Program-made: the position numbers and the translations under genes
Notes under the pieces: model-generated
What the model saw: the letters and a program-made list of their open reading frames with translations, nothing else
The model's database searches: none
Told to the model about the DNA's origin: nothing
Assembly (NCBI GenBank): GCA_016946835.1
Contig: JACVTC010000164.1
Location: 305,001-348,589 of the forward strand
Reading direction: 5' to 3'
DNA: 43,589 nucleotides
Origin: Neocallimastix lanati (nom. inval.)
Lineage: Eukaryota > Neocallimastigomycota > Neocallimastigomycetes > Neocallimastigales > Neocallimastigaceae
Shown here: positions 4,786 to 26,227 of the stretch, in pieces
How the letters are laid out: every line of letters begins with the position of its first letter
How positions within the stretch are numbered: position 1 is the first letter of the stretch

Positions 4786-4848
4786 TTGATAAAGTAATAA
4801 TGATATAATAAAGATAATAGTTTATTAATAAAATATTATTATTTTTAA

Positions 4849-4894
<46 letters not shown>

Positions 4895-4913
4895 TACTAA
4901 ATATTAAAAAAAA

Positions 4914-4926
4914 CAAGAGTTATTAT
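4914..4926 (-). promoter_or_regulatory. Element A self-primer binding site
   Basis: Immediately after the 5' LTR the element-sense sequence is ATAATAACTCTTG. Its exact complement CAAGAGTTATTAT lies inside the LTR (5041-5029 in the 5' copy, 181-169 in the 3' copy), about 36 nt downstream of a TATA box. In Tf1 the first 11 nt of the mRNA fold back and prime reverse transcription; the same arrangement is inferred here. No tRNA-type TGG is present. Confidence 0.85.
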
Positions 4927-5635
4927 TGTAATAACACAAAATTAATACTTAACTTTTATTAAAATAACAATAATTGATAAAAAATATTTCGAGTTTATTA
5001 AGAAATTTTATTATATATTATTTTCTAAATAATAACTCTTGATTTTTATTTTATAGAAAAAATCAAGGTTATTTATAATTTTTTTTGTTCATAATCTTAA
5101 AAGTTATTCTTTCAGGAAAAAGATTATGAGAAAAAACCTGAAAGATAAAATAAATTAATTATTTATTATTTAATATTATTTAATATTATTTAATATTATT
5201 TAATATTGGCAATTAACCAATATTTTATGAAATTATTTATTATGATGTTTTAAGTTTATAATTATTAACTAATTTTATATTAATTTAATATTAATTATAT
5301 TAATATTAAATGTTTTAATATAATTAATCACGTATTATTGTTAATGATAAATCAAATGATTAATTATTTATATTAAATAGAAATTGGTTATTAATTAAAG
5401 ATATTGTTTATATTTCATAATAATTAATTATTAATTAGTTAAAAAATTAATTTTATCAATTAATAATTATTTTTATTTTATTATTTAATAACAATTATTA
5501 AAATTATAGTATATTAAATAATATTAAGTGTTATTTTATTGAAAAATTATTTAAATCTTAATTAATAATAAAAATAAATATAATATTTATATTATATTTG
5601 GTTAAGTGTGACTAATTAATTAGTCAACACTTACA
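4927..5635 (-). repeat. Element A 5' LTR
   Basis: I found no mismatch to 67-775 over 709 bp. It drives transcription leftward; the inferred R start is at 5041. The CATTC that follows at 5636-5640 is both A's target duplication and the left duplication of the older solo LTR. Confidence 0.95.
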
Positions 5636-5640
5636 CATTC

Positions 5641-6204
5641 TGTAATAGCTATACTAAAACTAGAATTAATTAATATAACTATTATCTACAATTTTAATAT
5701 TATTTTTACATAATATTAAAATTGAGAAAATAAAATTAAAAAATAAAAATTATACTTAATTATACAGAGTTTATTATAAGTAAATATAACAAACAATAAC
5801 CAAGCAACGGTAGAATAGTAGTTGAAAATATTCTTTTTAAAAAAACCTTTTATGATTAATAACAGTTTTTTTTTGATATATAAATAAAAAATTTATTTTA
5901 TTTGTTATTATTTATTATATTTTCTTAAAATAATAACTCTTGATTTCTCAAAGAGAATTCAAGAGTCCTATTTATATTTTTTAAAAAATTAATCGGTTAA
6001 ATAAATTTGTTTTCTAATCTTAACAAAAAATCTATTTAGGAAAAGATTAGAAGAAAAACCTAAATAGTTTTTCGATCAATATTCTAATCATATTGATCAT
6101 CGTATAATTAAAGAAAACCTATTTGTTAGGAAAAACATTAATTACCGATTTTCTAATTAATTATAAAATATTAAATATTGATAGGATAGGAATTAATGAA
6201 AAAA

Positions 6205-6241
<37 letters not shown>

Positions 6242-6678
6242 CATTTAAAAAATAAAGATTAAATAATATGATAGATTAGATACATTTATAGTTTATAATA
6301 TATTATAAAATACATAATTCATTTTAATTAAAATAACTAATATTTTTATGGTAAAATATTAAATACAAATTTACATAATTTTTTGTAAAAATTCTATTTA
6401 AATGAATAATAATAATAAGTAAATAAATTTTATATTATTTATATAAATGTATAAATTATAATATGTAAATAAATTTAGATCAATATATGAAAATATAACT
6501 ATTAAATAAATTTATAAGTTAAAATCAATGATTATATTAATTATTATTTAAATAAATATTTTTTTAAAAATAATTATTATTTTATAAATAATTATAAATT
6601 ATTAATTATTTTTCATTAGTTATAAGAAATATTAATTATTCATTATTGAATAATTATGATTTCTTACAATTTCTTACA
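5641..6678 (-). repeat. Solo LTR, diverged relative of the element A LTR
   Basis: The stretch begins TGTAATAG and ends TTTCTTACA, matching the TGTAA...TTACA ends of the A LTR, and is flanked by CATTC on both sides (5636-5640 and 6679-6683). Internally it keeps A-like blocks: AATAACTCTTGATT at about 5931, a TATAAATAG box on the minus strand near 5972, and the gapped AGGAAAAGATTA block near 6040. A T tract lies at 6209-6240. There is no coding capacity, so it is best read as an LTR left after LTR-LTR recombination. The A element sits precisely in its left target duplication. Confidence 0.8.
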
Positions 6679-6686
6679 CATTCAAT

Positions 6687-7185
6687 TGATAAGAATGTAC
6701 TAAATAATGCATTCTTAATTAAATCTACGATTTATTTCTAATACATTATGTGTACATTATTATTTTTGTACTTTAATAAATTTTTAAATCCAAAGATCAA
6801 AAATTAAATCAAATATTATATTAAACTTTATATTTTTATATTAAATCTTATATTAAAAGTAATATTTTTATATATTTAAAACTTATATTAGCAATATTAA
6901 TAATAAATCTTATTTTTTTTTTTATATTAATAATGAAAATTTATATTAATAATATTTTTATATATTGATAATTAAAAATTTATATATTATATTTTAACTT
7001 TTTATTATAAAATTTTATATCGAAATGTTTTATTTTATATTGAAAAATATTTTATTTTATTAAAAACCTTTATATTAGAATAGTATTTTTATTTTTATTT
7101 GAATATTTTAACAGATTGTAATAAAAATTATAGCCAATTAAATAAATTCTTATTAGTAATATTTTAGATATTTTTAAATAAATAA

Positions 7186-7239
<54 letters not shown>

Positions 7240-7540
7240 TTTTATTAATATTATAAATGTATTTTATTTATATTGTTATAATTAAATTTTATATAATTAA
7301 TTATAAAAATCAATTTAAATTTAATAGTTTTTATAAAAAAAAAAAAAAAAATAAATAAAATGTAATTTAGTGGCAAGAACAACTTTTATGCCTTGAAAAA
7401 AGTATAAATAGTTGTAAATTTTGCTACTAATTTTTAAATATCATCAAATAAATTTAATAAAATAAATAAATAAAATAAATAAATAAATAAAATTTGTGTT
7501 TCCTTACTTTATTTTTATTTAATTCTCTAAAACCTTAACA
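6687..7540 (+). repeat. Element B 5' LTR
   Basis: This 854-bp LTR starts TGATAAGAATG and ends CCTTAACA. A TATAAATA box is at 7403-7410. An A tract of about 50 (7188-7237) is two bases longer than in the 3' copy; I see no other difference. Confidence 0.95.
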
Positions 7541-7546
7541 TTTATA

Positions 7547-7564
7547 TGGTGGAGATATCGGGGA
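7547..7564 (+). promoter_or_regulatory. Element B primer binding site (tRNA 3'-end type)
   Basis: TGGTGGAGATATCGGGGA lies 6 nt after the LTR. Its complement ends in CCA, as a tRNA acceptor end would, and the same 20 nt (plus AT) recur at 36301 in element D. The implied acceptor strand is GGAGATA. I could not assign the tRNA. Confidence 0.75.
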
Positions 7565-7759
7565 ATTAAATAGAAATAATAGTAAATAACATAGATTTTT
7601 TTTTTTTTTTAATTTTTTTTATTTTATATTGATAAACAAGTAAGTCGTTAATCCTTTGATTAACCTATGGCGCTTGTTTGATATATATATAAAAAAAATT
7701 TTTTTTAAATAAGTAAAATTAAGATTCTAAAAAAACAAATTTTGTAAAATTATAACAAG

Positions 7760-8123
7760 GAGCGGATAGAGCTCATACACAGTGTATTCTCAGATAGCAA
7801 CAAATTAACTCTATTCATAGTAGGTTATTGAATAGTAGTTAATTTGGAGATTAATTGGAAAGTAGACGAAGGTATTTGGTTACCGACCCGGTAATAATAG
7901 TTCAGCCTTCAACGTTTCAACACACGAAGGTGCGGGTACTTTCCAAGCACTGGCGAATAAGGAGCTTACGTCACCGAAGGCGTAAGATTGTTTTTTTTTT
8001 ATATATATTTTTTTTTACTTTTCTTTGTGCTAGTTATAAGGCACTTTATTATATAAAGTATCAGACTTTGACTAACTTCGCCATTTAAATTTTTTTTATT
8101 TTTTTTTATTACTGATACTTTAT
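7760..8123 (+). ncRNA. Structured leader module M1 (shared with element F)
   Basis: The head (7760-7782) differs from F 19507-19529 at 2 of 23 positions, and the 40 nt at 7950-7989 are identical to F 19656-19695. Within the latter, CTTACGTC (7965-7972) and GGCGTAAG (7979-7986) form an 8-bp stem (one G-U) with loop ACCGAA. Downstream, GTGC/GCAC (8027/8041) recurs in F at 19727/19740. A perfect 12-bp helix (8053-8064 with 8112-8123) occupies the place of a 9-bp helix of entirely different sequence in F. The middle differs between elements. It belongs to the transcript leader; function unknown. Confidence 0.6.
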
Positions 8124-8238
8124 TTGTTTAATAATTCCTGTAAAAGAATCTTAATTTACTTTGAAAATATTGTGTTTTTAGTTAATTTTTATTAGTTAAT
8201 AAAAATATTATTGAATACTTTTAAAATTTTTTTTATTC

Positions 8239-8398
8239 CGTACATAGATTATCGGATTAAGTTTATCCTACATAGTAATTGGGCTAGTGGGCTCTGAACT
8301 GCTATATTTTATATTGAATATAGTAATCGTGGCACACGCGTGGCATGACACCATTAGGTAAGCTGCACGTCAGACAGTGTGTACTATCAGATTGTACG
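8239..8398 (+). ncRNA. Structured leader module M2 (shared with element D)
   Basis: About 160 nt align with D 36375-36537. The closing helix is CGTACA/TGTACG here (8239-8244 with 8393-8398) and TGGATA/TATCCA in D: three of six pairs change with pairing kept. A 7-bp stem CTATATT/AATATAG (8302-8308 with 8317-8323, loop TTATATTG) becomes CTGTATT/AATACAG in D. A short ACC/GGT stem (8350/8357) becomes GCC/GGC. Invariant single-stranded blocks include CCTACATAGTAATTGGGCTA and GCTGCACGTCAGACAG. It does not resemble a ribozyme class that I know. Confidence 0.65.
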
Positions 8399-8566
8399 AC
8401 AATAAAGATTATTTTTTTTGTATTTAATTATTATAATTAATTAATAATTTTATTAGCTATAACAATACAATATTTATCGTTTAAAAAGAAAAATTTTTGA
8501 AAGGTGAAAATAACAAATAAAACTTTGCTTCTAAATTTATTACTACAAATATACTAAATTACAAAA

Positions 8567-8838
8567 TTCAAGTGGTCGATAAAGATTTCGAGCTTGAAAA
8601 ATATTCTATTAAGTTGTCGATAAAGATTTCGAACTTAAAATTATTCTATTAAGTTGTCGATAAAGATTTCGAACTTAAAATTATTCTATTGAGTTGTCGA
8701 TAAAGATTTCGAACTTAAAAATTATTCTATTGAGTTGTCGATAAAGATTTCGAACTTAAAAATTATTCTTAATAAGTAGTCGAAAAGAACCTCGTGCTTT
8801 ATAATTTCTACTAAGTTGTCGATAAAGATTTCGAGCTT
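8567..8838 (+). repeat. Array of seven two-stem hairpins before gag
   Basis: Seven repeats with a period near 40 bp start at about 8567, 8609, 8649, 8689, 8730, 8771 (degenerate) and 8813. The first is outer stem TTCAAG/CTTGAA, 3x1 internal loop TGG/G, inner stem TCGA/TCGA, loop TAAAGATT. Later copies have outer stems (T)TAAG/CTTA(A). The outer stem varies with pairing mostly kept, while the inner TCGA and the loop stay nearly constant. Element D has an analogous array at the same place with different sequences. Confidence 0.7.
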
Positions 8839-9013
8839 ATATCTACTAAAGAAAGCAAATAAAATTATTATTTTCAAAAGTTACTAAAATATATTGTTTT
8901 AAAAATTGATTCGATATTAAATTACCTATTAAATTATATTTTTAAAGTTGTATTTCCAAATTTATTCTTATTTAATCACCTCATTAATATACAACAAGAA
9001 ATATTTAAACAAA

Positions 9014-9925
9014 ATGTCCAAGGAAACAACTTTGAGCTTTAAAGAATTGAAAAAAGAATTAAGAGATATTGTGAAACTTAGCAAGGACAATTTAGATATT
9101 AAGTCCTGGGCTACTGAATTAAAACTTTGGATCAAGATACAAGGTATTACAGATCCAGAAACAATATTTAATGCTTGTTTACTTACCAGCTCTGGTGAAG
9201 TACAACGCGTTATTGAAGATTTGGGAGAAGATAGTGATGATGAAAGTGATGATTCATCAGATGAAGAAGAAGAACATGATGAAGAAGAAAATGTTGATGA
9301 TGATATTAAATTTCCTTCTCTTGGAAAAATTATTTCAAGTCTTGAAAATTTTTACGGTATTAAAGAAGACCAAAATTTACTTCTTAAAGAACTTCGTGCA
9401 ATGCGAATTAAAAGAAACGAAAAGATTAAGGACTTTAATGTAAGATATAGAACTTTGTACACTAAACTTGATAAAAAGAGAAGAAAGCGCATCGGTGTAC
9501 TAGATTATATTGATTCTATTCAAAATAATTATGAAGCCTGGAAGAAATTATCCCTTAAAGATGATATAAGTATGGAGAAAGCTTTCAAAATTGCCGAGAA
9601 AGTAGATAGACTTTCTGTAAGGAACAATAATATTAATACCTATAATGTTAATAATTCCCAGCATAATCAAAATAACCAAAACAGTACTCCTTCAAGACTT
9701 TATCCTAAAAGAAGAAACGAAACTTTCCAAACAAGTCAAACAAATAATAAACTGAAACCTCAAGATATTATAGAAGAATCAACCCAGAAAATGAGAAATT
9801 TATCCGTTAAAACTTGTTTCTTCTGTAAGGAAGAAGGTCATTACTCATACTATTGCCCTCAATTAAATAAGATTATGGAAAAAAATAAAAAAGAAATATA
9901 TTCCAAAAAGTCTTTAAACTTCTAA
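9014..9925 (+). CDS. Element B Gag
   Basis: This is the structural protein of the retrotransposon particle. From Met 9014 it has 303 residues. The N-terminal part (ELKKELRDI, KSWATELKLWIK) aligns with the D Gag, followed by a strongly acidic Asp/Glu/Ser segment and a conserved block EDQNLLLKELRAMRIKRNEKIKDFN (cited in parts) typical of gypsy Gag capsid C-terminal regions. An Asn/Gln-rich linker follows, and then a CCHC zinc knuckle (CFFCKEEGHYSYYC) near the C-terminus for RNA binding. The frame ends TCT TTA AAC TTC TAA, with a slippery heptamer just before the stop, so a fraction of ribosomes should continue into Pol. Confidence 0.9.
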   Translation: MSKETTLSFKELKKELRDIVKLSKDNLDIKSWATELKLWIKIQGITDPETIFNACLLTSSGEVQRVIEDLGEDSDDESDDSSDEEEEHDEEENVDDDIKFPSLGKIISSLENFYGIKEDQNLLLKELRAMRIKRNEKIKDFNVRYRTLYTKLDKKRRKRIGVLDYIDSIQNNYEAWKKLSLKDDISMEKAFKIAEKVDRLSVRNNNINTYNVNNSQHNQNNQNSTPSRLYPKRRNETFQTSQTNNKLKPQDIIEESTQKMRNLSVKTCFFCKEEGHYSYYCPQLNKIMEKNKKEIYSKKSLNF

Positions 9926-9965
9926 ATGGGAGCAGAAGCACTCCCAATGACAAAACAATAGCTTC
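9913..9965 (+). promoter_or_regulatory. Programmed -1 frameshift signal, slippery UUUAAAC plus pseudoknot
   Basis: T TTA AAC (9913-9919) lies in the Gag frame two codons before its stop. Eight nt later, stem 1 is TGGGAG/CTCCCA (9927-9932 with 9941-9946). Its loop contains GAAGC (9935-9939), which can pair with GCTTC (9961-9965) to form an H-type pseudoknot. The pol frame is -1 to gag and is open through this region. The same layout recurs in C and D with compensatory changes. Confidence 0.85.
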
Positions 9966-12900
9966 ATTAAATAATTTACAAAATAATACTTTTACTAAGA
10001 ATACTCCAATTGATAATAATTCCTTTAATGAAGAATCTGAAGAATTTGATTTTAGTGACACACCTGATAGTGAGGATGATATCATTATAAATGCTATAAA
10101 AAGAAAAATGAATGATAATAACAGCGAAAAAGAAGAAAGTAATTCCAAGAAAGTACATAAAAGTTTAAAAGATAATCCACGTCCTTTCGCAACTCCTGCT
10201 TTAAGAAAGAAGAAAGAAAATGAGCTACATAATAAACCAAATAAAGCTTATAAAAATCAAATACTTCCATCAATTTTAACTCAACCAAATATTAACAAAG
10301 AAAAACAAAAAGAAAAGGAATTAAGAAATATGACAAGAGTAAGAGAAAGTAAAGAAGAAAACAACAATTATTCATCAAAAGGAAAGGAAAAAGTTGAATC
10401 TGAAGATATACTTGTAATCGATAATGAAATAGAAGATCTAGAAATGAATAAAGATAATCAACAAAATAAAACTAATACTTTGGAAAAATTAATTTCAACA
10501 AAAACTAAAGAAACTAATAATGGAAATACTCAGTTAGTAAAAAGGAATATTAAAATGATGAATAATAAAGAACCTTACAATATTATGGATGATTTAAATA
10601 ATCTTAAATCCAGTATTACGATAGGTCAACTCTTGAATGCATGTCCGAAAATTCGTTCACAACTAACTCAAGGTTTAAAGTTAGAAAAATCTAAAATAAT
10701 TGGAACTGTAGACAATGTAATAGCACGAACTTTATTAGTAAATAACTATGATCATAGCTACATAAGTAAAAGTAATGAAGTAGCCGAAGAAGACTTAGCA
10801 ATGGTTGATGCAAGTGTTGACGGAGTACTAGGAAAACTTTTAATTGATTCTTGTAGTAACCTAAGCATCGTTACTAAGCAGTATTTTGATAAATTACCTG
10901 GTGAATATGAAACAGTTGGAAAAAGTCGTGGAAGAATCCAACTAGCAACACAAGATGAAGAATACTCGGAAGGAATTATTGTTCGATTACCAGTAAAAAT
11001 TAATAATTATGAATTTAATGCGGACTTTAGAATTATTGAGAAAGAAGACTCTTTTTATGATATGTTAATAAACTTTAAAACTCAAATCGATCATTGTTTA
11101 TTTATTCATCCGACCTTAAACAGTTTATGTAAACTTTTGTCAGAAAGTGAATACGAAGAAATAGCTAAAATAAATAATCAATATTATGATGAAGAAAGTA
11201 TAATTTGCACTATTAGAAAAGTTAAAGAAACGAATAATGAAAAGGAAATTATAAAGGAATTAACTCCAATGGAATTTATTGAGAGTGATGAATTTTTAAG
11301 TACCTTAAATAAAGATTATAAAGAACAAATTATTAAAATTCTCAAAGAAATGATTGACATAGTTGCTACTTCAACAGAAGAACTAACTCCTTCTAAACTT
11401 TCACCACATAAGATCCGTTTAAAAGCAAATTCAAAGCCAGTAAAATTAAGAAGTTATAGGTTAACTAAATTAAAATCAGATATCTTAAAAGAAGAACTTA
11501 CAAAACTTATTAAGAAAGGATTGATAGAACCATCCTGTTCAGAATGGTCATCTCCAGTAGTACTTATTCTAAAACACAATGGAAAGTGGCGCTTGTGCAT
11601 TGACTACCGAAAAGTCAATGATATGACAGAAAAAGATTCTTATTCAGTTCCATATATAGATGAAATTTTTGATAGTCTCGGAGGAGCTAAAATATTTACA
11701 ACTCTTGATTTATTTTCTGGTTTTCACCAAATCTTAATGGATGAAGAAAGCGTTGAAGTAACCACTTTCACTACTAAGTTTGGAAATTATCAATTTAGGG
11801 TTATGCCTTTTGGACTTACTGGAGCTCCCTCAACCTTCCAAAGAGAAATGAATAAAATTTTATTCCCTTTTATTGGTGAATTTGTATACGTATTTATTGA
11901 TGATGTTTTGATCTATTCAAAAAGTATCGAAGAACATTTAATTCATATTAAACAAGTATTAGAAGTATTTAAAGAAAACAAGTTAAAAATTAATATTGAA
12001 AAGTGCCATTTTCTTCAAACTGAAGTTGATGTATTAGGTCACAAACTTACTACTAAAGGATTAAGTCCCATGGAAAGTAAAATAACAGCTATTAAGAAGT
12101 GGGAAGCCCCTTCATCAGTTCATGAATTAAGATCATTTCTAGGAGCAATAGGGTATTATCGTGACTTTATTTCTAAATATGCTCAAATTACCTCACCTTT
12201 ATGTAAATTATTGAAAAAGAATACTAAATATGAATGGAATAAAGAACAACAAGAAAGCTTTGAACTCCTAAAAGAAAAATTAATCAATGCGCCTATTCTA
12301 AAATTTCCGTCATTTGACAAACCTTTTATCATTAGAACTGATGCTTCGTATAATGGAATTGGTGGAGTTCTTTTACAAAAAGAAGAAGAAACCGGTAAGG
12401 AGCATCCAATACACTTTATAAGTAGAAGTTTAAAGAAAGCTGAAAAGAATTATGGTATTACCGATTTGGAAGGAACCGCTTTGTTTTACTGTATGACTAA
12501 ATTTAAATCTTATATTGAAGGAAATCCACTACCTACAACTATTTACACAGATCATAAACCATTAGTTGGTTTATTTAAGAATAAAGAACCTTTGAATGCA
12601 AGGCAAACAAGATGGTGTCTAACCGCTAGTATGCTTGGAATTAATATAAAATATGAATCAGGCAAAAAGAATGTGTTAGCTGATGCTCTTTCAAGAATGA
12701 AAAGTAAGGAAGAGAGAAAGATATTATTAACAAAAATTACTGATGGAAATAATGAAGAATTATTATCTAAAGTTATAAAGGAATTTATTAATGAAAAGTT
12801 TACTGTTATTGATGGTGAAGATTACTTTATCGACAATGGAAATTATAGAAAATTAATAACGGACGAAAATGAAAGGTTTAAATTAATTTTAGAAGCTCAT

Positions 12901-13923
12901 AATATTGGCCACGAAGGATATTACAAAACATATCAAAGACTTAAGAAAAACTTTTATTGGAATCATATGATTAAAGATATCAAAAGAATTGTTAGTAATT
13001 GTGAAAAATGCCAATTAAATCGTCCTCAACCATATCCAGAACCAACCGAAAACCATCCAACTAAAGTGGAGGGTCCCTTTGTGCATTTAGGATTAGATAT
13101 TATAGGACCGTTACCAAAAACAAGAAATAATAATCAATATATTATAGTAACTGTTGATTACTTTACCAAATGGGTTGAAGCCGAACCCACTGAAAACATA
13201 ACTTCCTCTGATATAATTAAATTTTTAATAAACGTTTTTGCAAGACATGGTGTACCTCAAGTTATTACTACTGATAATGGAGTCCAATTCACTTCTGATA
13301 TGACTAAAATCTTTCTTGATCTTTATGATGTATATGTTAAATTTGTAGCTACTTACCACCCTGAATCAAATGGCCTTACTGAAAATCGAAATAAAGAAAT
13401 TGGAAAATTACTTCGTTTATTAGGAAGGAAAAATCAAGATTGGGATGAAGTTTTACCTTCTGCTTTATGGGCACTTCGAACTACCAAAAATACAGCTACT
13501 GGACATTCTAGTTTTGAATTAGTATATGGAAGAGAAGACCAACAGCCTTATGATATAGCCATAAGAACAATTGAAAATGCAGGTAAATCATATGATGAAA
13601 TTTTAATGGAAAAATTTGTTCGTCATTATCAATGGACTAGAGAAGCATGCGAAAATGTGAAGAATGCTAACAAGTATTGGGCAACAAGACGAGAAGAACA
13701 AATAAGTATGAAAAAGGGAAAAGAATTAAAGGCTGGTGATCTTGTTCTTGTTAGAAACTTTAGCCGCACTAAGCTAGAACCATATTACAATGGACCATTT
13801 AAAATTTTAAAAATTCAATTCAACACGGCAACCCTAATCGATCAGAAGACTGGAAAGCAACTCGATAGGAATGTTCACTTTAAAAATTTAGTAAAGTTTA
13901 ACTCCGCTTACAGAGAAGCTTGA
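9919..13923 (+). CDS. Element B Pol (protease, RT, RNase H, integrase), made by -1 frameshift
   Basis: The frame is unbroken from the slippery site; its first Met is 10108 (1271 aa; residue numbers below count from it). The N-terminal linker is basic and Asn/Lys-rich, with the motif LPSILTQPNI shared with C and D. The protease has LLIDSCSN with D247, that is DSC rather than the usual D(S/T)G. RT has FIDD at 596-599. RNase H has RTDASYNGIG and ends near VLADALSRM. Integrase has the H-x3-H (H931) and C-x2-C (C965) finger and a DDE core (GLDIIGP, TTDNGVQF, NGLTENRN). There is no chromodomain. It ends just before the 3' LTR. This is the only gypsy pol in the window without a break. Confidence 0.93.
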   Translation, partial: LLNGSRSTPNDKTIASLNNLQNNTFTKNTPIDNNSFNEESEEFDFSDTPDSEDDIIINAIKRKMNDNNSEKEESNSKKVHKSLKDNPRPFATPALRKKKENELHNKPNKAYKNQILPSILTQPNINKEKQKEKELRNMTRVRESKEENNNYSSKGKEKVESEDILVIDNEIEDLEMNKDNQQNKTNTLEKLISTKTKETNNGNTQLVKRNIKMMNNKEPYNIMDDLNNLKSSITIGQLLNACPKIRSQLTQGLKLEKSKIIGTVDNVIARTLLVNNYDHSYISKSNEVAEEDLAMVDASVDGVLGKLLIDSCSNLSIVTKQYFDKLPGEYETVGKSRGRIQLATQDEEYSEGIIVRLPVKINNYEFNADFRIIEKEDSFYDMLINFKTQIDHCLFIHPTLNSLCKLLSESEYEEIAKINNQYYDEESIICTIRKVKETNNEKEIIKELTPMEFIESDEFLSTLNKDYKEQIIKILKEMIDIVATSTEELTPSKLSPHKIRLKANSKPVKLRSYRLTKLKSDILKEELTKLIKKGLIEPSCSEWSSPVVLILKHNGKWRLCIDYRKVNDMTEKDSYSVPYIDEIFDSLGGAKIFTTLDLFSGFHQILMDEESVEVTTFTTKFGNYQFRVMPFGLTGAPSTFQREMNKILFPFIGEFVYVFIDDVLIYSKSIEEHLIHIKQVLEVFKENKLKINIEKCHFLQTEVDVLGHKLTTKGLSPMESKITAIKKWEAPSSVHELRSFLGAIGYYRDFISKYAQITSPLCKLLKKNTKYEWNKEQQESFELLKEKLINAPILKFPSFDKPFIIRTDASYNGIGGVLLQKEEETGKEHPIHFISRSLKKAEKNYGITDLEGTALFYCMTKFKSYIEGNPLPTTIYTDHKPLVGLFKNKEPLNARQTRWCLTASMLGINIKYESGKKNVLADALSRMKSKEERKILLTKITDGNNEELLSKVIKEFINEKFTVIDGEDYFIDNGNYRKLITDENERFKLILEAHNIGHEGYYKTYQRLKKNFYWNHMIKDIKRIVSNCEKCQLNRPQPYPEPTENHPTKVEGPFVHLGLDIIGPLPKTRNNNQYIIVTVDYFTKWVEAEPTENITSSDIIKFLINVFARHGVPQVITTDNGVQFTSDMTKIFLDLYDVYVKFVATYHPESNGLTENRNKEIGKLLRLLGRKNQDWDEVLPSALWALRTTKNTATGHSSFELVYGREDQQPYDIAIRTIENAGKSYDEILMEKFVRHYQWTREACENVKNANKYWATRREEQISMKKGKELKAGDLVLVRNFSRTKLEPYYNGPFKILKIQFNTATLIDQKTGKQLDRNVHFKNLVKFNSAYREA

Positions 13924-13941
13924 GTCTTCGTCGGGGCATCT

Positions 13942-14440
13942 TGATAAGAATGTACTAAATAATGCATTCTTAATTAAATCTACGATTTATTTCTAATACA
14001 TTATGTGTACATTATTATTTTTGTACTTTAATAAATTTTTAAATCCAAAGATCAAAAATTAAATCAAATATTATATTAAACTTTATATTTTTATATTAAA
14101 TCTTATATTAAAAGTAATATTTTTATATATTTAAAACTTATATTAGCAATATTAATAATAAATCTTATTTTTTTTTTTATATTAATAATGAAAATTTATA
14201 TTAATAATATTTTTATATATTGATAATTAAAAATTTATATATTATATTTTAACTTTTTATTATAAAATTTTATATCGAAATGTTTTATTTTATATTGAAA
14301 AATATTTTATTTTATTAAAAACCTTTATATTAGAATAGTATTTTTATTTTTATTTGAATATTTTAACAGATTGTAATAAAAATTATAGCCAATTAAATAA
14401 ATTCTTATTAGTAATATTTTAGATATTTTTAAATAAATAA

Positions 14441-14492
<52 letters not shown>

Positions 14493-14793
14493 TTTTATTA
14501 ATATTATAAATGTATTTTATTTATATTGTTATAATTAAATTTTATATAATTAATTATAAAAATCAATTTAAATTTAATAGTTTTTATAAAAAAAAAAAAA
14601 AAAATAAATAAAATGTAATTTAGTGGCAAGAACAACTTTTATGCCTTGAAAAAAGTATAAATAGTTGTAAATTTTGCTACTAATTTTTAAATATCATCAA
14701 ATAAATTTAATAAAATAAATAAATAAAATAAATAAATAAATAAAATTTGTGTTTCCTTACTTTATTTTTATTTAATTCTCTAAAACCTTAACA
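13942..14793 (+). repeat. Element B 3' LTR
   Basis: This 852-bp copy matches 6687-7540 apart from a two-base shorter A tract (ending 14490). The duplication CAAT follows directly and is already part of the F LTR. Confidence 0.95.
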
Positions 14794-14797
14794 CAAT

Positions 14798-15422
14798 TAG
14801 TAAAATTAGAACTTTGGTTCAATGGTTAGTTACATTGACCATGATCAATACTTCATGGGTTCGACTCACACCTCAACCAATTTTGCATTAATAATTATTT
14901 TATTAATTATTTTATTAATTATTAATAATATCTTCTTGAATATTCTTTCTGTATAAAATTATAGAAAGTTAAAGATTCTTTCGGTTCGTAATTCAACCGA
15001 AATGAATTTAGAAATTCTTATTATATAAATTATTTTATTCTTTTTGATAAGATTCATTTTCATCAATTAAAATCTATATTCTAGAAACTTTACATTATTA
15101 ATTATTACAAACATATTTCTAAATATTTCTTTAAAATTATTTTTACATGTTAAAACTGTTTTTCCGTTAAAAGTATAAATAGTGCGAACTTCACGAATGA
15201 AAATATTTTTCTTCGTGCTTTTATTAATAATAATTAACGTATAAGTAATTCGAAATATTACCTTGTTGATTAATATTAATAATTATTTTAAATTTTATAA
15301 TTAATAAAAAATATTTCTAATAAAACGAATTATTTATACAGATAGTGTAAACCTATTGAGTTTTCTCCTTTCTGTGTTTCTATATCTCATCCCACCTTTA
15401 CAATAGAAGCACCTCCGTTACA
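14798..15422 (+). repeat. Element F 5' LTR (5' end lost to insertions)
   Basis: It is nearly identical to 23200-23823. It has a TATAAAT box at 15174-15180 and an inferred R start GTGCTTTTATT at 15215-15225. The last 35 nt hold a near-duplicate of the LTR end plus PBS: TTACAATAGAAGCACCT then CGTTACAATAAAAGCACCT. Confidence 0.85.
14815..14867 (+). promoter_or_regulatory. tRNA-like Pol III promoter motif (A and B boxes) inside the F LTR
   Basis: TGGTTCAATGG (14815-14825) fits the A-box consensus TRGYNNANNGG. GGTTCGACTC (14858-14867) fits the B-box core. The spacing is tRNA-like and TTTT follows within about 20 nt of the B box. Acceptor and T stems do not pair properly, so this is tRNA-derived rather than a working tRNA. 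The same motif occurs at 23216-23268, 27984-28036 (minus) and 35380-35432 (minus). Confidence 0.6.
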
Positions 15423-15433
15423 ATAAAAGCACC
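15423..15433 (+). promoter_or_regulatory. Element F self-primer binding site
   Basis: ATAAAAGCACC directly follows the LTR. With the terminal LTR A, AATAAAAGCAC (15422-15432) is the exact complement of GTGCTTTTATT (15215-15225), about 41 nt downstream of the TATA box. This 11-nt self-pairing is the Tf1 type of priming. Confidence 0.7.
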
Positions 15434-15865: not shown

Positions 15866-16225
15866 TGTTAGAAAATTAGTATTTTTAGTTTATAAATTTA
15901 ATTAACATTTTAATTAATATTTTTATTTTATTACAACTTTTATTATAATTTTAAATATTAAATAGTTTATTATAAATAAATAGGATATATTATATTAATA
16001 TATAGTTTATATAGTTTATGAATATAGTTTTAAAAAATTTTATTTTTATAAGCCTCTTTTATATAGTTAATATTAAAACATGTATTTAATGTATTAAAAT
16101 ATGTATGATCCATCAAATGTATTTTGTATGTATAAATAACATTAAATTATGTATTCTTAAAAAATAAGCCTTTTGCTTCAAATAAATAAAGTTAATAAAT
16201 AAACAAATATTGAGATTTTTTAACA
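15866..16225 (+). repeat. Element E 5' LTR
   Basis: The 360-bp repeat starts TGTTAG and ends TTAACA, and has a TATAAATAA box near 16130. It is 99.7% identical to the 3' copy. Confidence 0.95.
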
Positions 16226-16240
16226 GATTAAGAGTCTCAT
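16226..16240 (+). promoter_or_regulatory. Element E PBS complementary to a tRNA-Lys(CUU) anticodon arm
   Basis: GATTAAGAGTCTCAT touches the LTR. Its complement ATGAGACTCTTAATC matches the anticodon stem-loop of eukaryotic tRNA-Lys(CUU) as I know it (loop CUCUUAA). The primer 3' end would fall in the anticodon stem near nt 40, so the primer must be a 5' tRNA fragment, as for Drosophila copia (initiator Met) and yeast Ty5. Confidence 0.7.
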
Positions 16241-16289
16241 TTGACTCGATAAGTTTGTGTGGAAATTTAGAATACTTAGTTAATTAGGA

Positions 16290-16377
16290 AATTTAGTAAT
16301 TTAGTAATTTAGTAACTTATTAACTTAGTAATTTAGTAATTTAGCAATTTAGTAATTTAGTAATTTAGCAACATAGT
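16290..16377 (+). repeat. 8-bp minisatellite, about 11 units
   Basis: AATTTAGT is repeated in tandem with variants AACTTATT, AACTTAGT, AATTTAGC and AACATAGT in the E leader. The rest of the leader (16241-16573) is AT-rich with nothing else recognisable. Confidence 0.85.
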
Positions 16378-16573
16378 ATAATTAGGATATTTAAGATTAA
16401 CAATACTTAAATATACACATAAGTAAATAAGAAATACATCAGAATTAGGAAATTAGTATTTGAATGTTTCTTATATAATTTAGTAATTAGAATTTAGAAA
16501 TAGTAATTAGCAATTTATAATTAATAAACAAATTCATTAAATAATATTAAAAATATATTATTACATTTAAGAA

Positions 16574-18526
16574 ATGACCGGAACAACTAGAATAGTTCTT
16601 AATAGGATGGAATATGTCCTAACAGAAGATAACTACGATGAATGGTATGAAGACTTTATCCTCGAACTCCAAGGCGCTGGATTAAGTGAATACGTAGAAA
16701 AAAACATAGATGATATAGTAAAAGAAGTAGAGAAGAAATATACAACCAAAGATAAGAAGGGAAATAATATCTTATCTGAAGAAGGCGAAAACAAAATTAA
16801 GGAACATAAAATGAACAACTTCAAAGTTTTGAGTTTTTTAAGAAAATCTGTTGATGCAAAAATAAAATCCTTTATTAGAAGTAAGGAAGAAGAAAAAAAT
16901 TCAGCATACTTAATATTAAAGGTACTAAAGAAGAAATACCACGAAGAAGAATTCAATGAAATACCAAAACTCTACAGAAGATTAGAAAATATGAGGGCCG
17001 AAAGCGATAAAGAAACTTTAGAATACATCGAAGAATTTTTAGAAATCACGCAAAAGTTAGGAAAATTAAATAATAAACTTAGCAATAGGGAAAAATTAAA
17101 CTACTTGTTTAAAGGACTACCAGAGAAACAATTAAATTTCTTAGAAATAAGATACAGTATCTCAGAAGACGTCAATGAAATATTAGAAGATATGAAGAAG
17201 CAAATTAGAAATCGTAGAATCTTTATCCCGGGAAAAAATAAAGAAAAAGAAGAAGAAATATCACAAATATCCAAAGGAAAAAATAAGAATAAAAATAAAG
17301 ACAAAGGCAATAATTACGAAAGTTGTGATGAAGACGATATCTGCGAGAAATTCAATAATAAAAGAAGTATAAATAATAAGAAAAAGCGTTGTTATTTATG
17401 TGATAGTGAAAACCATTTAGTTTACAACTGCCCCTTTAACCCTAAGAATCCTCATAACAATATTAAACACATAGCAGAACAATTCCAAAAATTAAATATT
17501 TCAGTTGATGAAATAAACGATATTGAATTATGTTATGACAGTGTTTCGGATAGCGATAGTAGTATAGTTAAAATAAAAGAAATAAATTTAATTGAAACTG
17601 AAAATAGTATAATGGAAACAAATTTAATTGAACCTGGAAATAGTATCAAAGAAATAAATTTATGTGAAATAAGCACTACTTCAGAAAAAGAAAAAGAAGA
17701 TAATAATGATAATCGATATTTAGAATTTAAAACTATAGATGATACAAGAAAATTCAATTATGATACAAATTATTGTAATAACTGTGGTGAAAACAACAAA
17801 TTTAAAAATAATAACACACCAAATAAAACAGAAAACACAAATATTTTTCAAAAGGAAAATAATATTAATTATGATTTAAATAATTATTTTATTAATGGTA
17901 TTTATAATAGCAATGAATATAATAACGGCAACTATAAGAATTTAGGTATAGATAGTAACGTACATAATAATGAAATAGAAAGTATGAATAAAAATAATAT
18001 TTCGAATAATTACCAAAATTATGAAAATCCTGTTACGATAGATAAATATGTAATTGAATCATTTCAAGATAAAATAAACAAAACAAATTGTAAATTGAAT
18101 AAATTATTGAAATGTTTGAGTGAAATTGAAGAAAAGAACAATAACATCCAGAAAATTATTAAAGAATATTTACAAATTATGAGATTTGATAATACTTATG
18201 AAAATTATGAAAAATATATGAAAATAATTAATCAATATAACAATATTTTGAATGTTAATTATTATAATCCAGGGAATGAAATTGAAAAAGGTGTAAACAA
18301 AAATAGTCTAGGCAAAAAAACTGGTGAAAATTATAAATATATGAAGAAAAACATTTTTTCAGAAAAAAATTTTTTTAATAATAAAAATTTGTCAAAAATT
18401 GATCAAAAATTAAAAATCAATACGAATGAGCAAAATTTGAAATTTAATTCTAATGTACATGCGTTTGAATTTAAATCTGATTCGTTAGCTGAGAAAAATT
18501 TAGGTTGTACTACTACAGATAAATAA
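16574..18526 (+). CDS. Element E Gag-like protein
   Basis: This 650-aa protein begins like Copia Gag (UBN2-type): LTEDNYDEWYEDFILEL near residue 16, then a helical region around LENMRAESDKETLEYIEEF and EKLNYLFKGLPEKQL. A CCHC knuckle (CYLCDSENHLVYNC) near residue 275 suggests RNA binding. The remaining half is low-complexity, rich in Asn, Lys, Glu and Ile, with short repeats (KEINLIE, ETNLIE, KEINLCE) around 340-365 and a Cys pair (CNNCGE) near 403. It has no protease, integrase or RT. The long disordered tail is unusual for a Gag and may be lineage-specific. The first Met gives a start 348 nt after the LTR. Confidence 0.8.
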   Translation: MTGTTRIVLNRMEYVLTEDNYDEWYEDFILELQGAGLSEYVEKNIDDIVKEVEKKYTTKDKKGNNILSEEGENKIKEHKMNNFKVLSFLRKSVDAKIKSFIRSKEEEKNSAYLILKVLKKKYHEEEFNEIPKLYRRLENMRAESDKETLEYIEEFLEITQKLGKLNNKLSNREKLNYLFKGLPEKQLNFLEIRYSISEDVNEILEDMKKQIRNRRIFIPGKNKEKEEEISQISKGKNKNKNKDKGNNYESCDEDDICEKFNNKRSINNKKKRCYLCDSENHLVYNCPFNPKNPHNNIKHIAEQFQKLNISVDEINDIELCYDSVSDSDSSIVKIKEINLIETENSIMETNLIEPGNSIKEINLCEISTTSEKEKEDNNDNRYLEFKTIDDTRKFNYDTNYCNNCGENNKFKNNNTPNKTENTNIFQKENNINYDLNNYFINGIYNSNEYNNGNYKNLGIDSNVHNNEIESMNKNNISNNYQNYENPVTIDKYVIESFQDKINKTNCKLNKLLKCLSEIEEKNNNIQKIIKEYLQIMRFDNTYENYEKYMKIINQYNNILNVNYYNPGNEIEKGVNKNSLGKKTGENYKYMKKNIFSEKNFFNNKNLSKIDQKLKINTNEQNLKFNSNVHAFEFKSDSLAEKNLGCTTTDK

Positions 18527-18622
18527 GAATTATTAGCAAATTAGTAAAGATATAAAAATATTAAAAAAATAACAAATTTTCTTAGTAAACAAAGATTTTA
18601 CAATACTTTGTTTAGGGGGGAA

Positions 18623-18982
18623 TGTTAGAAAATTAGTATTTTTAGTTTATAAATTTAATTAACATTTTAATTAATATTTTTATTTTATTACAACTTTTAT
18701 TATAATTTTAAATATTAAATAGTTTATTATAAATAAATAGGATATATTATATTAATATATAGTTTATATAGTTTATGAATATAGTTTTAAAAAATTTTAT
18801 TTTTATAAGCTTCTTTTATATAGTTAATATTAAAACATGTATTTAATGTATTAAAATATGTATGATCCATCAAATGTATTTTGTATGTATAAATAACATT
18901 AAATTATGTATTCTTAAAAAATAAGCCTTTTGCTTCAAATAAATAAAGTTAATAAATAAACAAATATTGAGATTTTTTAACA
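18623..18982 (+). repeat. Element E 3' LTR
   Basis: This 360-bp copy follows a purine run (18614-18622) and is followed by the duplication AATTC. It has one visible substitution relative to the 5' copy. Confidence 0.95.
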
Positions 18983-19250
18983 AATTCAAATTAAATTTGT
19001 ACTACCCTATTAAGATAAAACTTGCATTACCTTAACCTTTTAAAAAAAAAAAAAAAAAAAATTTTAGATATTAAATTAATCTTGTATTACCTTAACCCTT
19101 TAAAACTAATTCTAATATTTACCAACAAAATTAATTTATAATTAGATAAATAATATTAAATTAATTTAGTAAAAAAAAAATTTTAATTTTAATTTTTAGA
19201 TAAATATTTTAGATTAATTTAGTGAATAAATCAATTAGTTCTAGATAAAT

Positions 19251-20414: not shown

Positions 20415-22853
20415 ATGGACAACTATAATCAAGAAAATCCTACCTTTAAGGATGGTTTTGCTGGTGATCGTCGATTCTTTAAAGGATTTCTAGCTAAAAT
20501 GGAACTTATTTTTATGATTCAACCAGAAAGATTTGCAAACGATGAAGCTAAAGTAATCTATATCATTTCTCGTTTGTATGGAAACGCCATGAATTGGGCT
20601 GATACTCTCATTGAAAATCAAGATCCTTGTCTCCTTAATTATAATCAATTCATTGCTAGATTAAAATCAGTATTTGGAAGCTACGATTCTACCTTTATTG
20701 CGAACCAGAAATTAAGAACAATCAAACAAAAACGAATTGGTGAAGTCAGAAATTATATTTTAGAATTTAATAAATACGCCGATGAATCTTCTTGGAATGA
20801 AGAAGCCAAGATGGACGCCTTTCTTGCCGGTCTACACGACCATATTGCTACTAGAATTTTAGAAATGTTTCCTGGACCTCAAACCCTCTTTGCTATGCAA
20901 ACAATTGCATCTAGAATCGATAATCGTATCTCTACTCATAGACAATTTTCCAATCTTCAAGGTCAAAATTCAAATAATAGTAATAATAATAAAAATAAAA
21001 AGGGCAAAAAATCATTCTTTTTCCAAAAGCAATTTAAATCCAAACCTCATGGACCTCTATCTCAAGAAGAAAAAGAAAGAAGAAGAAGAAAAAATCTTTG
21101 TTTATATTGTGGATCCTCTGAACATTCTCTCGACAATTGTCCACTTAAAAATAAATACAAAAATAAACCTTCATCAAGTAGCACTTATATTTCTAATCCC
21201 GAATCAAAACCTATATCTAGACCCAGAGTTTCTGACTCAAATCTTCCTATTTACGAATTTTCTTTAAGTATTGATAATACAAATTCTACTGCTAAAATTC
21301 TTCTCGATACTGGTTCTCAAATCAATTTAATGGATATCTACTATGTTAAAGAAAATCATATCCCGTATTCAACCAAAACTAATTTCCCTAAGGTATCTGG
21401 CATCGGTGGAAAGCAAACTATTCTTGGTAAAACTCTTCCTATTTCCATCACTTATAATAACCATAAATGTAAGACTCAATTCTATGTGGTTGACCTTCCT
21501 TCTTATTGTGCTATTTTAGGTTTCGAATGGATTTCTACTCACAATCCCGACATTGACTTCAAAAATAAAGTCTTAAGATTTAATTCCAATTATTGCATTG
21601 AAAATTGTTTAATCATCCCTAACTCCTTTACTTCTTATGTTCCTTTAAATACTACTAAACAAAATGATAAAAATGAAAATGAAGAAATCAATAATAAAAT
21701 AAGCAAATCATTACCAAAAAAATTACTTCCCTTTATAGACACTTTCAGTAAAATATACACTAATGAATCACCTCCTTATTGTCCTTTTGATAGCGAGATT
21801 AAACTCAAACAAAATGAAAAACTTCATTATGACCCAATCTACCCCTTAACTGAAAAAGAACCTCTAGCTCCGAAGAAATATATTAAAGAAAATGAAGACA
21901 AAAAATTTATTAGTAAATCTAAATCTCCAGCTGCCGCTTCTATTTTATTTGTTCCCAAGAAAGACCTAAATGATCTCTTTCGTATTCATAAACCACCCTC
22001 CGATTTTTTTTCCGATAAAGATACTCAATTCACTTCAAAATTTTGGTCAGCTATTTGTAAATCCTTCAATATTACAACAAAACTTGCTTCTCCCTTCCAT
22101 CACCAAACCAATGGTTTAACGGAGAGGGTGAACTCCGTTATTGAACAATACTTAAGATGTTATTCAAACTTTAAAGGTTCTGATTGGTATAATTTTTTAT
22201 TCCTAGCAGAATTCAGTTATAATAATTCAATTCAAGAATCAATTAAGCACTCACCTTTTTATGCAAACTATGGATATAATCCAAGATATTCACCATCAAT
22301 TCCAAACAGTACAGATGTTCCTAGAGCTGATGAATTTACAAAAGATTTTTCAGAATTATTTAAAACACTTAATGGAAATTTACAACAAGCAAGAAAAAAG
22401 CAAGAAGAATTCGCAAACAAACATCGTATTGAAGCTCCAAATTTTAAACCTGGTGATAAAGTGTGGATTAATAGTTCACTTATAATTCATAATGGAAATA
22501 AAAAGCTTAAACCTAGAAAACTTGGTCCATATAAAATCATTAAGAAAATTTCTCCCGTTTCATATAAGTTAGACTTACCAAAAGAAATCAGAATCCATCC
22601 TGTAATACATGTTTCTGAACTTGAACCATTTTATGAAGATCACTTTGGACGAAAGAAAGAACCACCACCACCGATAATTATTGACAATGAAGAAGAATAC
22701 GAAGTTGAAAAAATTCTTGATAAAAGAAAACATTATGGCAAAACCCAATATCTTATTAAATGGAAAGGTTATCCTTTATCTGAAGCATCTTGGGAACCCG
22801 AAGAAAATCTAAATTGCCCTAAACTCTTAAAAGAATTTAACAAAAATAACTAA
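20415..22853 (+). CDS. Element F Gag-protease-integrase tail-chromodomain fusion (RT deleted in frame)
   Basis: This 812-aa open frame starts with Gag (about 1-225, retrotransposon Gag fold with [27 protein letters not shown]) and a CCHC knuckle ([14 protein letters not shown], 229-242). The protease has LLDTGSQ with D298. The first part of RT (YPLTEKE to ILFVPKKD, about 475-516) joins directly to integrase just before [12 protein letters not shown]. By comparison with A, roughly 550 residues (RT core, RNase H, zinc finger, first catalytic Asp) are missing, with the frame kept. The integrase C-terminal domain ([12 protein letters not shown]) follows, then a chromodomain ([13 protein letters not shown]...YLIKWKGYP...SWEPEENL) at about 761-808. 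Gag, protease and the targeting domain may still be made; polymerase must come in trans. Confidence 0.88.
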
Positions 22854-23180: not shown

Positions 23181-23823
23181 TGTAACGAAATCTTCAGTTA
23201 GTAAAATTAGAACTTTGGTTCAATGGTTAGTTACATTGACCATGACCAATACTTCATGGGTTCGACTCACACCTCAACCAATTTTGCATTAATAATTATT
23301 TTATTAATTATTTTATTAATTATTAATAATATCTTCTTGAATATTCTTTCTGTATAAAATTATAGAAAGTTAAAGATTCTTTCGGTTCGTAATTCAACCG
23401 AAATGAATTTAGAAATTCTTATTATATAAATTATTTTATTCTTTTTGATAAGATTCATTTTCATCAATTAAAATCTATATTCTAGAAACTTTACATTATT
23501 AATTATTACAAACATATTTCTAAATATTTCTTTAAAATTATTTTTACATGTTAAAACTGTTTTTCCGTTAAAAGTATAAATAGTGCGAACTTCACGAATG
23601 AAAATATTTTTCTTCGTGCTTTTATTAATAATAATTAACGTATAAGTAATTCGAAATATTACCTTGTTGATTAATATTAATAATTATTTTAAATTTTATA
23701 ATTAATAAAAAATATTTCTAATAAAACGAATTATTTATACAGATAGTGTAAACCTATTGAGTTTTCTCCTTTCTGTGTTTCTATATCTCATCCCACCTTT
23801 ACAATAGAAGCACCTCCGTTACA
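23181..23823 (+). repeat. Element F 3' LTR
   Basis: This 643-bp LTR has perfect 7-bp inverted ends TGTAACG/CGTTACA. The A box is at 23216-23226, the B box at 23259-23268, and a TATAAAT box is about 360 bp further on. This is the only copy in the window whose first 16 bp (TGTAACGAAATCTTCA) are intact, because no element has inserted there. Confidence 0.85.
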
Positions 23824-23829
23824 AAATTA

Positions 23830-25287
23830 AGATTATTTATTTTAAATTAATATTTATATCGTTTAAATCAATTAAACAATCTTTCTATAATTTAACTAAT
23901 TCATTTCTGTTGCATCCATTATAAAATAAATTTATTTCCTTACTTTTGTAATTTTCAATTAAAATTTTAATTTCATCAGTTGCACTAAATATTTTTTGCT
24001 TTTTTTTCCAAGTTCCTTTAGTTCTCCTTTGGTAATCATTATAAGATAAGTTTTCTTCTTCTTTTAATATATATATTAATTTATAAAATAAAGGTTTATT
24101 TGGAAATATATTATTTAAGTAGCTATTATAAGATTCTGATACATTGTTTGTTAAATGCTCTATATTTTCATAATAATTCCAATTATTAACATTATACTTA
24201 AGTAAATAATTTTTATTAAAATATTCTAAAAATTGTAGAAAATTATTATACTTTTTTTTTTTTTTTTTTTTTTTGACAAATTCTTTTTATTATAATATAA
24301 ATATCAAATATATAGTTAGGGTTTAAAAACAATAAGTTCGAAATAGCTTTATAATAAATATATACATCATTATTATTTTTCACTTCATGATAACATTATA
24401 TATTGTTTTGTTTTTCTAATGATCTTTTGTAATGCCAAACACAATATTTAATATTTATATTGGGAAAAACTTTTTTTGCGGCATTAGATATACCTTGTTC
24501 AAAATCACAATGAAAATTAATTGTAGTAATTAATGTATTACTCCTAAATTTATTTGCATTTTTTTTTTATTTCTTTAAATAATGTTTCATATGTAGATTG
24601 TTTTTTAATTTTTTAATATAGAAATGGAAGTAGTGTAAAACATATTAAATTCCCCAACATAAGTTCTTGTTATAAATAACTGATAACTAAATTTCGGTGC
24701 TGCATAAAATGTACCGTCCGCAAATATATTTTTATGATAATTCGAAAATAAATATGCTTGGAATGGTGATTGAAAGATTATTAGATCAGTATTTTTAAAT
24801 ATCATAAAATTTTTCATTTCTTTTCGTTTTATAATATTTTGATTCAATGGGAATATCATCAAAACTTTTTATGTTTGGAGGAAATTGTTTATTTATATTT
24901 CTTATTATTTGGGATCTAATTGTACTATATTCGGGACATATAAGTTCCATTTCTTGAGAAACGGCATTAAATATATGTTTAGGTTTTATATCCATAGGAA
25001 TTGAATTTTTCCTAATTTCTTCCTTATTTTATGTTTTGCTACTGATATAGACACATCAATTTCTTTTTCGAGATGGTTATGTAAACTTTCATATTTTAAA
25101 ACCTCCTTTTTATCATTTAAAATAATTAAAGATTTGCATTTATTTAAAGTCTTATATTTTTGCATCTATAAATTTTTGATTTATCTTTCCTTTGAAATGA
25201 AAAATTAAATTTGTATTTTTTATTAATAATAATTTGTTCATTTCCTCGATTTGTTTCACTTATTTCAATTTCTATATTTTCTTCCAT
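23830..25287 (-). pseudogene. MULE transposase relic, left copy
   Basis: On the minus strand a decayed transposase reads from Met 25287. It has a FLYWCH-like zinc-finger region, then a helical linker (SQEMELICPEYSTIRSQIIRNI), then the MULE catalytic block FADGTFYAAPKFSYQLFITRTY with the first Asp. HCDFEQGI has the second Asp, followed by the conserved NAAKKVFP...YCVWHYKR segment near 24410-24485. Several frameshifts and stops and a T tract at 24250-24274 break it. Its 3' side meets the F LTR. It is certainly non-coding now. Confidence 0.8.
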
Positions 25288-25870
25288 TGATAATTAAAAG
25301 TTTTCAATAAAATATTTTAATAAATATACTTTTAAATGCTTTGAAACTTTTTTTTTTTTTAATGTTTAAAATAATAAACCTTTTTTTAATTAATTATATA
25401 ATTATTTAAATAATTATTTAATTATTAATTATTTATTATTTCTTTATTTACTATTTTATTTATTTATTTTTATTTTTTTTTATTTTTTATTTTATTTTTT
25501 TTTTTATTTATTTTTATTTTATTTTTTAATGTTTAAAAAAAAAGTTTTCTTATTATTTTTATTTTATTTTTTTAATGTTTAAAAAAAAAAAGTTTTCTTA
25601 TTTCTTATTTTTTTTTTTATTTTTTAAGCATTAAAAAATAAAATGTTTATTTATTTTTATTTTATTTTATTTTTCAATGTTTAAAAAAAAAGTTTTCTTA
25701 TTTCTTATTTTTATTTTATTTTTTAATGTTAAATAGAAATACCTAACCTAATTATTATTTATTGAAGTGTTGTATTTCGCCAAAAGTTAAATTCGTCCAG
25801 TTGAATTTCCCAAATTCTTGGTGGCTTATATATTTATGTCATTAAAATATCACCACAATTATAATTCACG
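24480..25870. repeat. Left arm of a 2.9-kb imperfect palindrome
   Basis: This arm is the reverse complement, with scattered differences and slippage in T/A runs, of 26120-27427. It contains most of the MULE gene and its upstream AT-rich region (T-rich 25330-25740). The spacer between the arms is 25871-26119. Inner edges carry GAAGTGTTGTATTTCGCC (25764) and its complement (ending 26227), about 464 bp apart, which look like terminal inverted repeats of about 100 bp. Confidence 0.75.
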
Positions 25871-26227
25871 GGGAGTGTGCATTTCGAAAATTTTTATTAC
25901 AAAAATTTGTATTTTGTTGTATGGCTTAAATATTTTTAATTTTAAGCCACTTAATATTATTAAAAATTTAATGAATAATAATTAATTAATTAAATAAATA
26001 AAATTACAATTCTCAAAAATTTTCAAACACGTAATCTTACGTGGGGCGTATATCTAATTGTATCATATTTTTGTGGCTTTTTTCTACAATTTTTAAAAAG
26101 CCATATATTTACAATATGGCGTGAATAATAAATGTGGTGATATTTTATGACGAAAATTTATAAGCCACCAAGAATTTGACGAAATTCAACTGGACGAAAT
26201 TCAACTTTTGGCGAAATACAACACTTC
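25764..26227. mobile_element. Fold-back core or MITE-like unit at the palindrome centre
   Basis: GAAGTGTTGTATTTCGCC at the left and its exact complement at the right start inverted repeats of roughly 100 bp (to about 25870 and from about 26120). The interior (25871-26119) has no coding frame; it holds ATGGCTTAAA...TTTAAGCCA-type hairpins and GGGG(A/C)-containing words. The flanks are also inverted repeats, so no clean duplication can be read. It could be two MULE ends head to head or a separate element. Confidence 0.45.

Follow-up and report, generated by a model that had tools for sequence, protein, structure and literature searches.

Insertions of Ty3-like retrotransposons converge upstream of tRNA-gene-like boxes in the LTRs of another retrotransposon of Neocallimastix lanati

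Elements stacked before a tRNA-gene-like module

Why should several retrotransposons end at one and the same point, some 20 nucleotides before an A box that itself lies in the LTR of another retrotransposon? This question is raised by a stretch of 43,589 nucleotides of Neocallimastix lanati (contig C73:305001-348589 of an AT-rich 199 Mb assembly in 762 contigs), hereafter called the window, whose content is stacked LTR retrotransposons and in which all positions are counted from the first letter. In a protein comparison in which most relatives were unnamed, the closest named relatives of the ORFs of two of these elements, F and B, were labelled Orpsp1, which we take to stand for Orpinomyces, a genus of Neocallimastigomycota, and the host is probably an anaerobic fungus of the gut. 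The best reading of the locus, which we consider very probable, is that integration is directed to Pol III promoters as in Ty3, with a transposon serving as the landing pad.

Uninterrupted copies of the F LTR measure 643 bp, from TGTAACG to CGTTACA, and the true start, TGTAACGAAATC, lies 35 nt before the A box. Position 14794, near which the alignments of all four copies in the window begin, was ruled out as the start of the LTR, since other copies reach 14 nt further to TGTAACG. In the remaining part of the 5' LTR of F (LTR positions ~15-643; 14794-15422, forward strand), the first-pass annotation had recognised A- and B-box motifs, and both were recovered: the A box, TGGTTCAATGG (14815-14825, forward strand), whose T at 14815 is used here as reference point 0, and the B box, GGTTCGACTC (14858-14867, forward strand), 43 nt after this T. 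A run of TTTT read from the sequence at 14881-14884 of the same strand is a possible Pol III terminator. The 3' LTR (23181-23823, forward strand, A-box T at 23216) is uninterrupted, and the reverse strand carries a further F-family LTR (27428-28057, A-box T near 28036) and a piece of 116 bp (35338-35453, A-box T near 35432). The pattern GGTTCGA.TC has four matches in the window, all of which belong to F-LTR modules and lie 43 nt downstream of an A-box match.

Neither ARAGORN nor Rfam at the gathering score found a tRNA in the window, and the Rfam tRNA model RF00005 gave no hit to the modules even with E relaxed to 5-10, in a low-threshold search that recognised two real tRNAs. Further modules, named F2, F3 and F4, were found beside B or D insertions. 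The A block is conserved and GGGTTCGA of the B block invariant among the four modules F, F2, F3 and F4; beyond the insert, F2 and F3 show LTR starts resembling that of F, and F4, which has tRNA-like boxes with no LTR start seen beside the box, may for this reason be no LTR. Genome-wide, 287 matches were obtained with the A-box pattern of F (up to 3 mismatches), 287 with its B-box pattern and 215 with the B-box pattern of F2 (both up to 2 mismatches), and none with the reversed-pattern controls for the F and F2 box searches. F itself may likewise use the conserved boxes, either as a Pol III promoter or as a TFIIIC-bound boundary.

Inserts separate the first ~10-15 nt of the F LTR from its remainder. 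On the left of the window, E, A, a solo LTR and B stand in this order before the A box. Only the end of E is visible, its LTR start in reversed orientation (1-63, reverse strand), since the sequence upstream of the window reads N; the same end is found at two other F LTRs (L092 and L111). Element A (67-5635, reverse strand), with LTRs of 709 bp that are 100% identical, turns its own LTR start towards the A box and is flanked by CATTC at 62-66 and 5636-5640, the solo LTR (5641-6678) by CATTC at 5636-5640 and 6679-6683, and element B (6687-14793, forward strand), whose LTR end faces the box, by CAAT at 6683-6686 and 14794-14797. Elements C (28058-35337, forward strand, with LTRs of 753 bp that are 100% identical) and D (35455-43589, forward strand, cut by the contig end) each adjoin another F module with their LTR start, at the junctions 28057/28058 and 35454/35455. 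When later inserts are discounted, the distance from the element end to the A-box T is 25 nt for A and for the solo LTR, 23 nt for E, 22 nt for D and 21 nt for B and C. The junctions named in the first-pass annotation thus exist, and the convergence before the A box that it had described holds; its count of five insertions at 18-25 bp becomes six, as E had been missed, at 21-25 nt.

It had also been proposed that CATTC was used by the solo LTR and then by A, an order that the direct repeats leave unfixed; if every insertion hits -25 to -21, the solo LTR would instead have followed A. Because CATTC contains the terminal CA of E, part of this target was created by an earlier insertion. Since each insertion leaves the boxes intact, the pad is reusable and elements can stack, with the newest probably nearest the boxes. 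The target duplication is short (4-5 bp; CATTC for A, CAAT for B); D is cut, and the right junction of C is abnormal, with 116 bp of F duplicated (27942-28057 and 35338-35453) and the terminal A of the LTR lost. Another copy of C (L203) ends TTTATCA, and we read the junction in the window as an aberrant integration or repair event. The same arrangement of C, F piece and D is found on contig C315. The LTR pair of B differs by a gap only and that of F at 2 of 630 sites; together with the identical pairs of A and C, this fits an F pad older than its inserts.

Domain search of the A, B, C and D ORFs gave matches to Ty3/gypsy-type (Metaviridae) families of RT, RNase H and integrase, and none to a chromodomain. 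The order RT-RNase H-integrase is contained in one ORF in B and spread across adjacent ORFs in A and C; in D it reads RT-RH-H2C2, the contig end cutting off the rest. B and D have the same putative primer-binding sequence, TGGTGGAGATATCGGGG (7547-7563 and 36301-36317), and their LTRs show no match.

Position of the breaks in F and F2 LTRs of the genome

Outside the window, 79 F LTRs were read, of which 36 were interrupted, with the break in every case 20-25 nt ahead of the A-box T (mean 22.5; one site, L233, was taken as 22 by its GTATTA end, and reading it as 19 would give a range of 19-25 and a mean of 22.4). The first set, anchored on the A box, comprised 60 sites, namely the first 62 of the 100 listed (out of 287) minus two in the window, with 34 intact LTR starts and 26 interrupted ones; as the exact sequence from -14 to +15 was required, breaks in that interval could not show. 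This limit does not apply to the second set, for which 20 B-box-anchored sites absent from the exact A-box list were taken and one (L225), cut by a contig end, was dropped, and here 9 of the 19 were intact and 10 interrupted. In a sample of 40 F2 sites, read among 100 listed out of 215, 30 were intact and 10 had a break, 21-26 nt ahead of the A-box T (mean 22.1). The first-pass annotation predicted a peak of junctions near -20 of A boxes, and all 36 F and 10 F2 breaks fall 20-26 nt before the A-box T.

The same picture could arise from a few nested insertions if segmental duplication, uncollapsed haplotypes or F-LTR gene conversion had multiplied them, and duplicate loci do exist (C401/C395, C167/C23, C358/C115 and C315/window), as do common downstream flanks (L003/L004/L009, and likewise L015/L022). 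As the main cause, however, this is contradicted by the junction strings, which differ in 34 of the 36 F and in all 10 F2 cases, by the several distances and by the 12 distinct LTR ends found at F (A-like junction ends being counted as TTACA), and we regard it as extremely unlikely; the first-pass annotation had named duplication of one event as what would overturn its reading, and the flanks do not mainly arise in this way. A junction pattern for B in reversed orientation had 13 matches in the genome, of which at least 2 have a different LTR end, and no match in the reversed control.

Selection could also concentrate the breaks, if insertions elsewhere in F LTRs were lost and those at -22 tolerated, and an insertion at LTR position ~13 indeed spares most of the LTR. 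In F LTRs with long flanks, 12 of 30 were broken at LTR positions 10-15 (at least some of the 12 being duplicate loci), but none of the 30 was broken at positions 322-643, the 322 bp that the search did not constrain. The LTR pairs in the window, identical in A and C and differing only by a gap in B, moreover point to recent insertions, and the same families lie at the same distance at tRNA genes, as described below. We therefore consider selection to be very unlikely as the explanation.

The same families at tRNA genes

The families that end at F modules also lie before real tRNA genes of this genome, and the distance is unchanged. For 13 insertions of A, B, C or D at tRNA genes, with distances entered partly by hand from the reading of insertion flanks, the element ended 19-25 nt before T8 of the A box, which corresponds to 12-18 nt before nt 1, with a mean of 21.8. 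These distances did not differ significantly from those at F (Mann-Whitney p = 0.11) or F2 (p = 0.80). B was found before tRNA genes for Arg, Ser and Val, A before those for Asn, Met, Trp and Ala, and C before those for Arg, Met and Cys, and a D LTR, 99.8% identical over 843 bp, ends 16 nt before a tRNA-Arg gene. The 30 best-scoring tRNA loci were taken for this comparison, with genes for Arg(UCU), Thr and Asn called among them by ARAGORN, and only high-identity rows of the BLAST of LTRs against them were used, since AT-rich matches otherwise dominate. On contig C555 there are 34 tRNA matches, all on one strand, and those fetched (L055-L060) include tRNA-Arg(UCU).

Among 39 insertions of A, B, C or D with both flanks read, whose targets were classified by hand, 14 were at a tRNA gene (12 called by ARAGORN, and B_C68 and A_C588 by eye), 11 at a tRNA-like module, 13 showed only other LTR ends and 1 was unclear. 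With repeated arrangements removed, the 34 remaining insertions comprised 13 at tRNA genes, 8 at modules, 12 with other LTR ends and the unclear one. The original target is not visible for the 13 of 39 in which the sides read held just the ends of other LTR elements, and the side with the LTR end was overlooked in B_C2 and B_C1 when the flanks were read. In 24 of the 25 resolved cases the target lay on the LTR-start side of the element; other exceptions are B of the window, L270 and an A at L031.

An LTR-end motif, from a list drawn partly from F sites, was present 10-22 nt upstream in 29 of 44 distinct tRNA upstream sequences, compared with 15% in shuffles. Eight of the 15 upstream sequences in which it was absent belong to the second gene of a tRNA-Asn/tRNA-Arg pair: in these pairs the motif stands before the first gene and never between the two, as expected if the start-site complex, rather than the A box alone, is read.

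The integrases might instead prefer a DNA motif or bend at F LTR positions 10-15, Pol III factors being uninvolved, and within F the breaks do fall in a short, nearly constant stretch. The target sequence varies, however, from TTCAG in F to an A run in F2 and to tRNA genes, whereas the A box remains ~22 nt away, and such a preference seems highly improbable. Together, the position, the common families and spacing, the involvement of several families and the stacking demonstrate positional targeting.

Proposed mechanism, known systems and the role of F

As a mechanism for Pol III promoter-directed integration, we propose that Ty3-like families, A, B, C and D among them, select Pol III start sites, a point ~22 nt ahead of the A box, and that the chromodomain retrotransposon F and its sister LTRs F2 and F3 would attract them with the tRNA-gene-like A and B boxes near their LTR start. 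TFIIIC would bind these boxes and set TFIIIB just upstream, and the integrases would recognise the TFIIIB complex on the F LTR as on a tRNA gene. Factor occupancy, transcription of the module by Pol III and the order of the insertions are all deduced here from the sequence.

According to two publications, insertion of Ty3 falls 1-4 bp before the start site, duplicates 5 bp and involves contacts with TFIIIB, and a long helix, also present in PFV, is said to place the CTD for contact with TFIIIB (PMC5911963, PMC8632968). The chromodomain of its integrase acts as a positional ruler. The elements described here share with Ty3 of Saccharomyces cerevisiae the RT-RH-IN order of Metaviridae, a short target duplication, landing upstream of Pol III starts and, in the model of B, a long helix between core and barrel. 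In contrast to what these sources describe for Ty3, A and B lack a chromodomain after the CTD, several families are present in one genome and the pads include LTRs of another group. By sequence comparison, Ty3 is the best solved relative of the Pol of B (E 4.8e-105); by fold, foamy-virus integrases outrank Ty3 for the B integrase model. This model (mean pLDDT 82, pTM 0.45, the domain arrangement being unreliable) has a helix of 42 residues between the core and the C-terminal barrel and leaves no room for a C-terminal chromodomain, the match to Ty3 (7q5b) ending at residue 375 of 382 and the last strand of the model at 374. The A integrase has none either, its match stopping at 595 of 610. That A and B nevertheless keep to this distance suggests that Ty3-like positioning can do without an integrase chromodomain, and the tether in the two families may be the CTD or another partner.

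Ty3 and DGLT-A of Dictyostelium insert roughly 15 bp before the mature tRNA (PMC5006619), which is matched by the 12-18 nt before tRNA nt 1 found here. Tj1 of Schizosaccharomyces japonicus also inserts upstream of tRNA genes, but in the direction of the gene itself (PMC4600332), whereas the direction is opposite here, as seen from the targets on the LTR-start side. Helenus/TRIMp3 and Cassandra resemble F in having LTRs with A and B boxes like those of small RNA genes, probably Pol III promoters, with no functional tRNAs, and Helenus is a short TRIM of 311-1263 bp (PMC10886601). F differs from Helenus in its size of ~5.9 kb, its gag/chromodomain ORF, its self-complementary PBS and its use as a landing pad.

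With an LTR-to-LTR spacing of ~5.3 kb, F is not a TRIM. Its ORF of 812 aa (20415-22853, forward strand) carries, by domain search, gag, an integrase C-terminus (PF24626, E 3.6e-19) and, after the C-terminal barrel, a chromodomain (PF00385, E 4.7e-18), with no RT match. As many relatives, with ~1400 aa, carry all domains, the copy in the window is probably non-autonomous.

Tf1 and Tf2 are chromoviruses with SH3_Tf2-1 and a chromodomain, and their PBS is complementary to their own LTR. F is similar in its domains and in its putative PBS but, unlike them, has tRNA-like boxes A and B close to where its LTR begins. Its putative primer-binding site, ATAAAAGCAC (15423-15432, forward strand), is the reverse complement of 10 nt of the LTR (15215-15224) and would fit a self-priming, Tf1-like mechanism. 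An insert in the 5' LTR lies upstream of the transcript start predicted from this self-complement (15215) and should leave the F RNA intact.

Nested inside F, at 15866-18986, is what appears to be a gag-only copia derivative, with terminal repeats of 364 bp and a copia-type gag ORF of 650 aa. A large fold-back at 24480-27427, with inverted copies (24480-25870 and 27427-26120) that are ~90% identical, abuts an F LTR end. Upstream of the intact starts of three F LTRs (L074, L108 and L128), at slightly differing offsets, lies one sequence ending ATTTTATTTTACA, which may point to a target hit repeatedly by F itself. Two F elements (L018/L017 and L025/L024) are surrounded by 5-bp target duplications, AATAT and ATATC, and the bases read there show no obvious tRNA gene.

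Targeting of tRNA upstream regions by Ty3-like elements is already known, and so, from work on Helenus, are LTRs with tRNA-like Pol III boxes (PMC10886601). The combination of Pol III-targeting elements with a tRNA-like LTR as their pad was unreported in the literature searched, subscription papers being mostly outside it. The first-pass annotation had spoken of parasitism among retroelements, an ecological interpretation that goes beyond positional targeting itself. Tentatively, and with less than even confidence, we speculate that a tRNA-gene-mimicking promoter is retained in the LTRs of chromodomain families and offers a guild of Ty3-like elements a decoy or safe haven that replicates itself. 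If this were true, the pads, with about 500 F and F2 box matches in the genome, would draw insertions away from the limited set of tRNA genes, or supplement it, and each would stay reusable. A specificity for Pol III genes that is met by another mobile element means a target that multiplies by itself, and the insertions provide a natural readout of possible Pol III factor sites in a little-studied fungal lineage. The idea that retrotransposon promoters act as decoys sparing tRNA genes thereby becomes testable.
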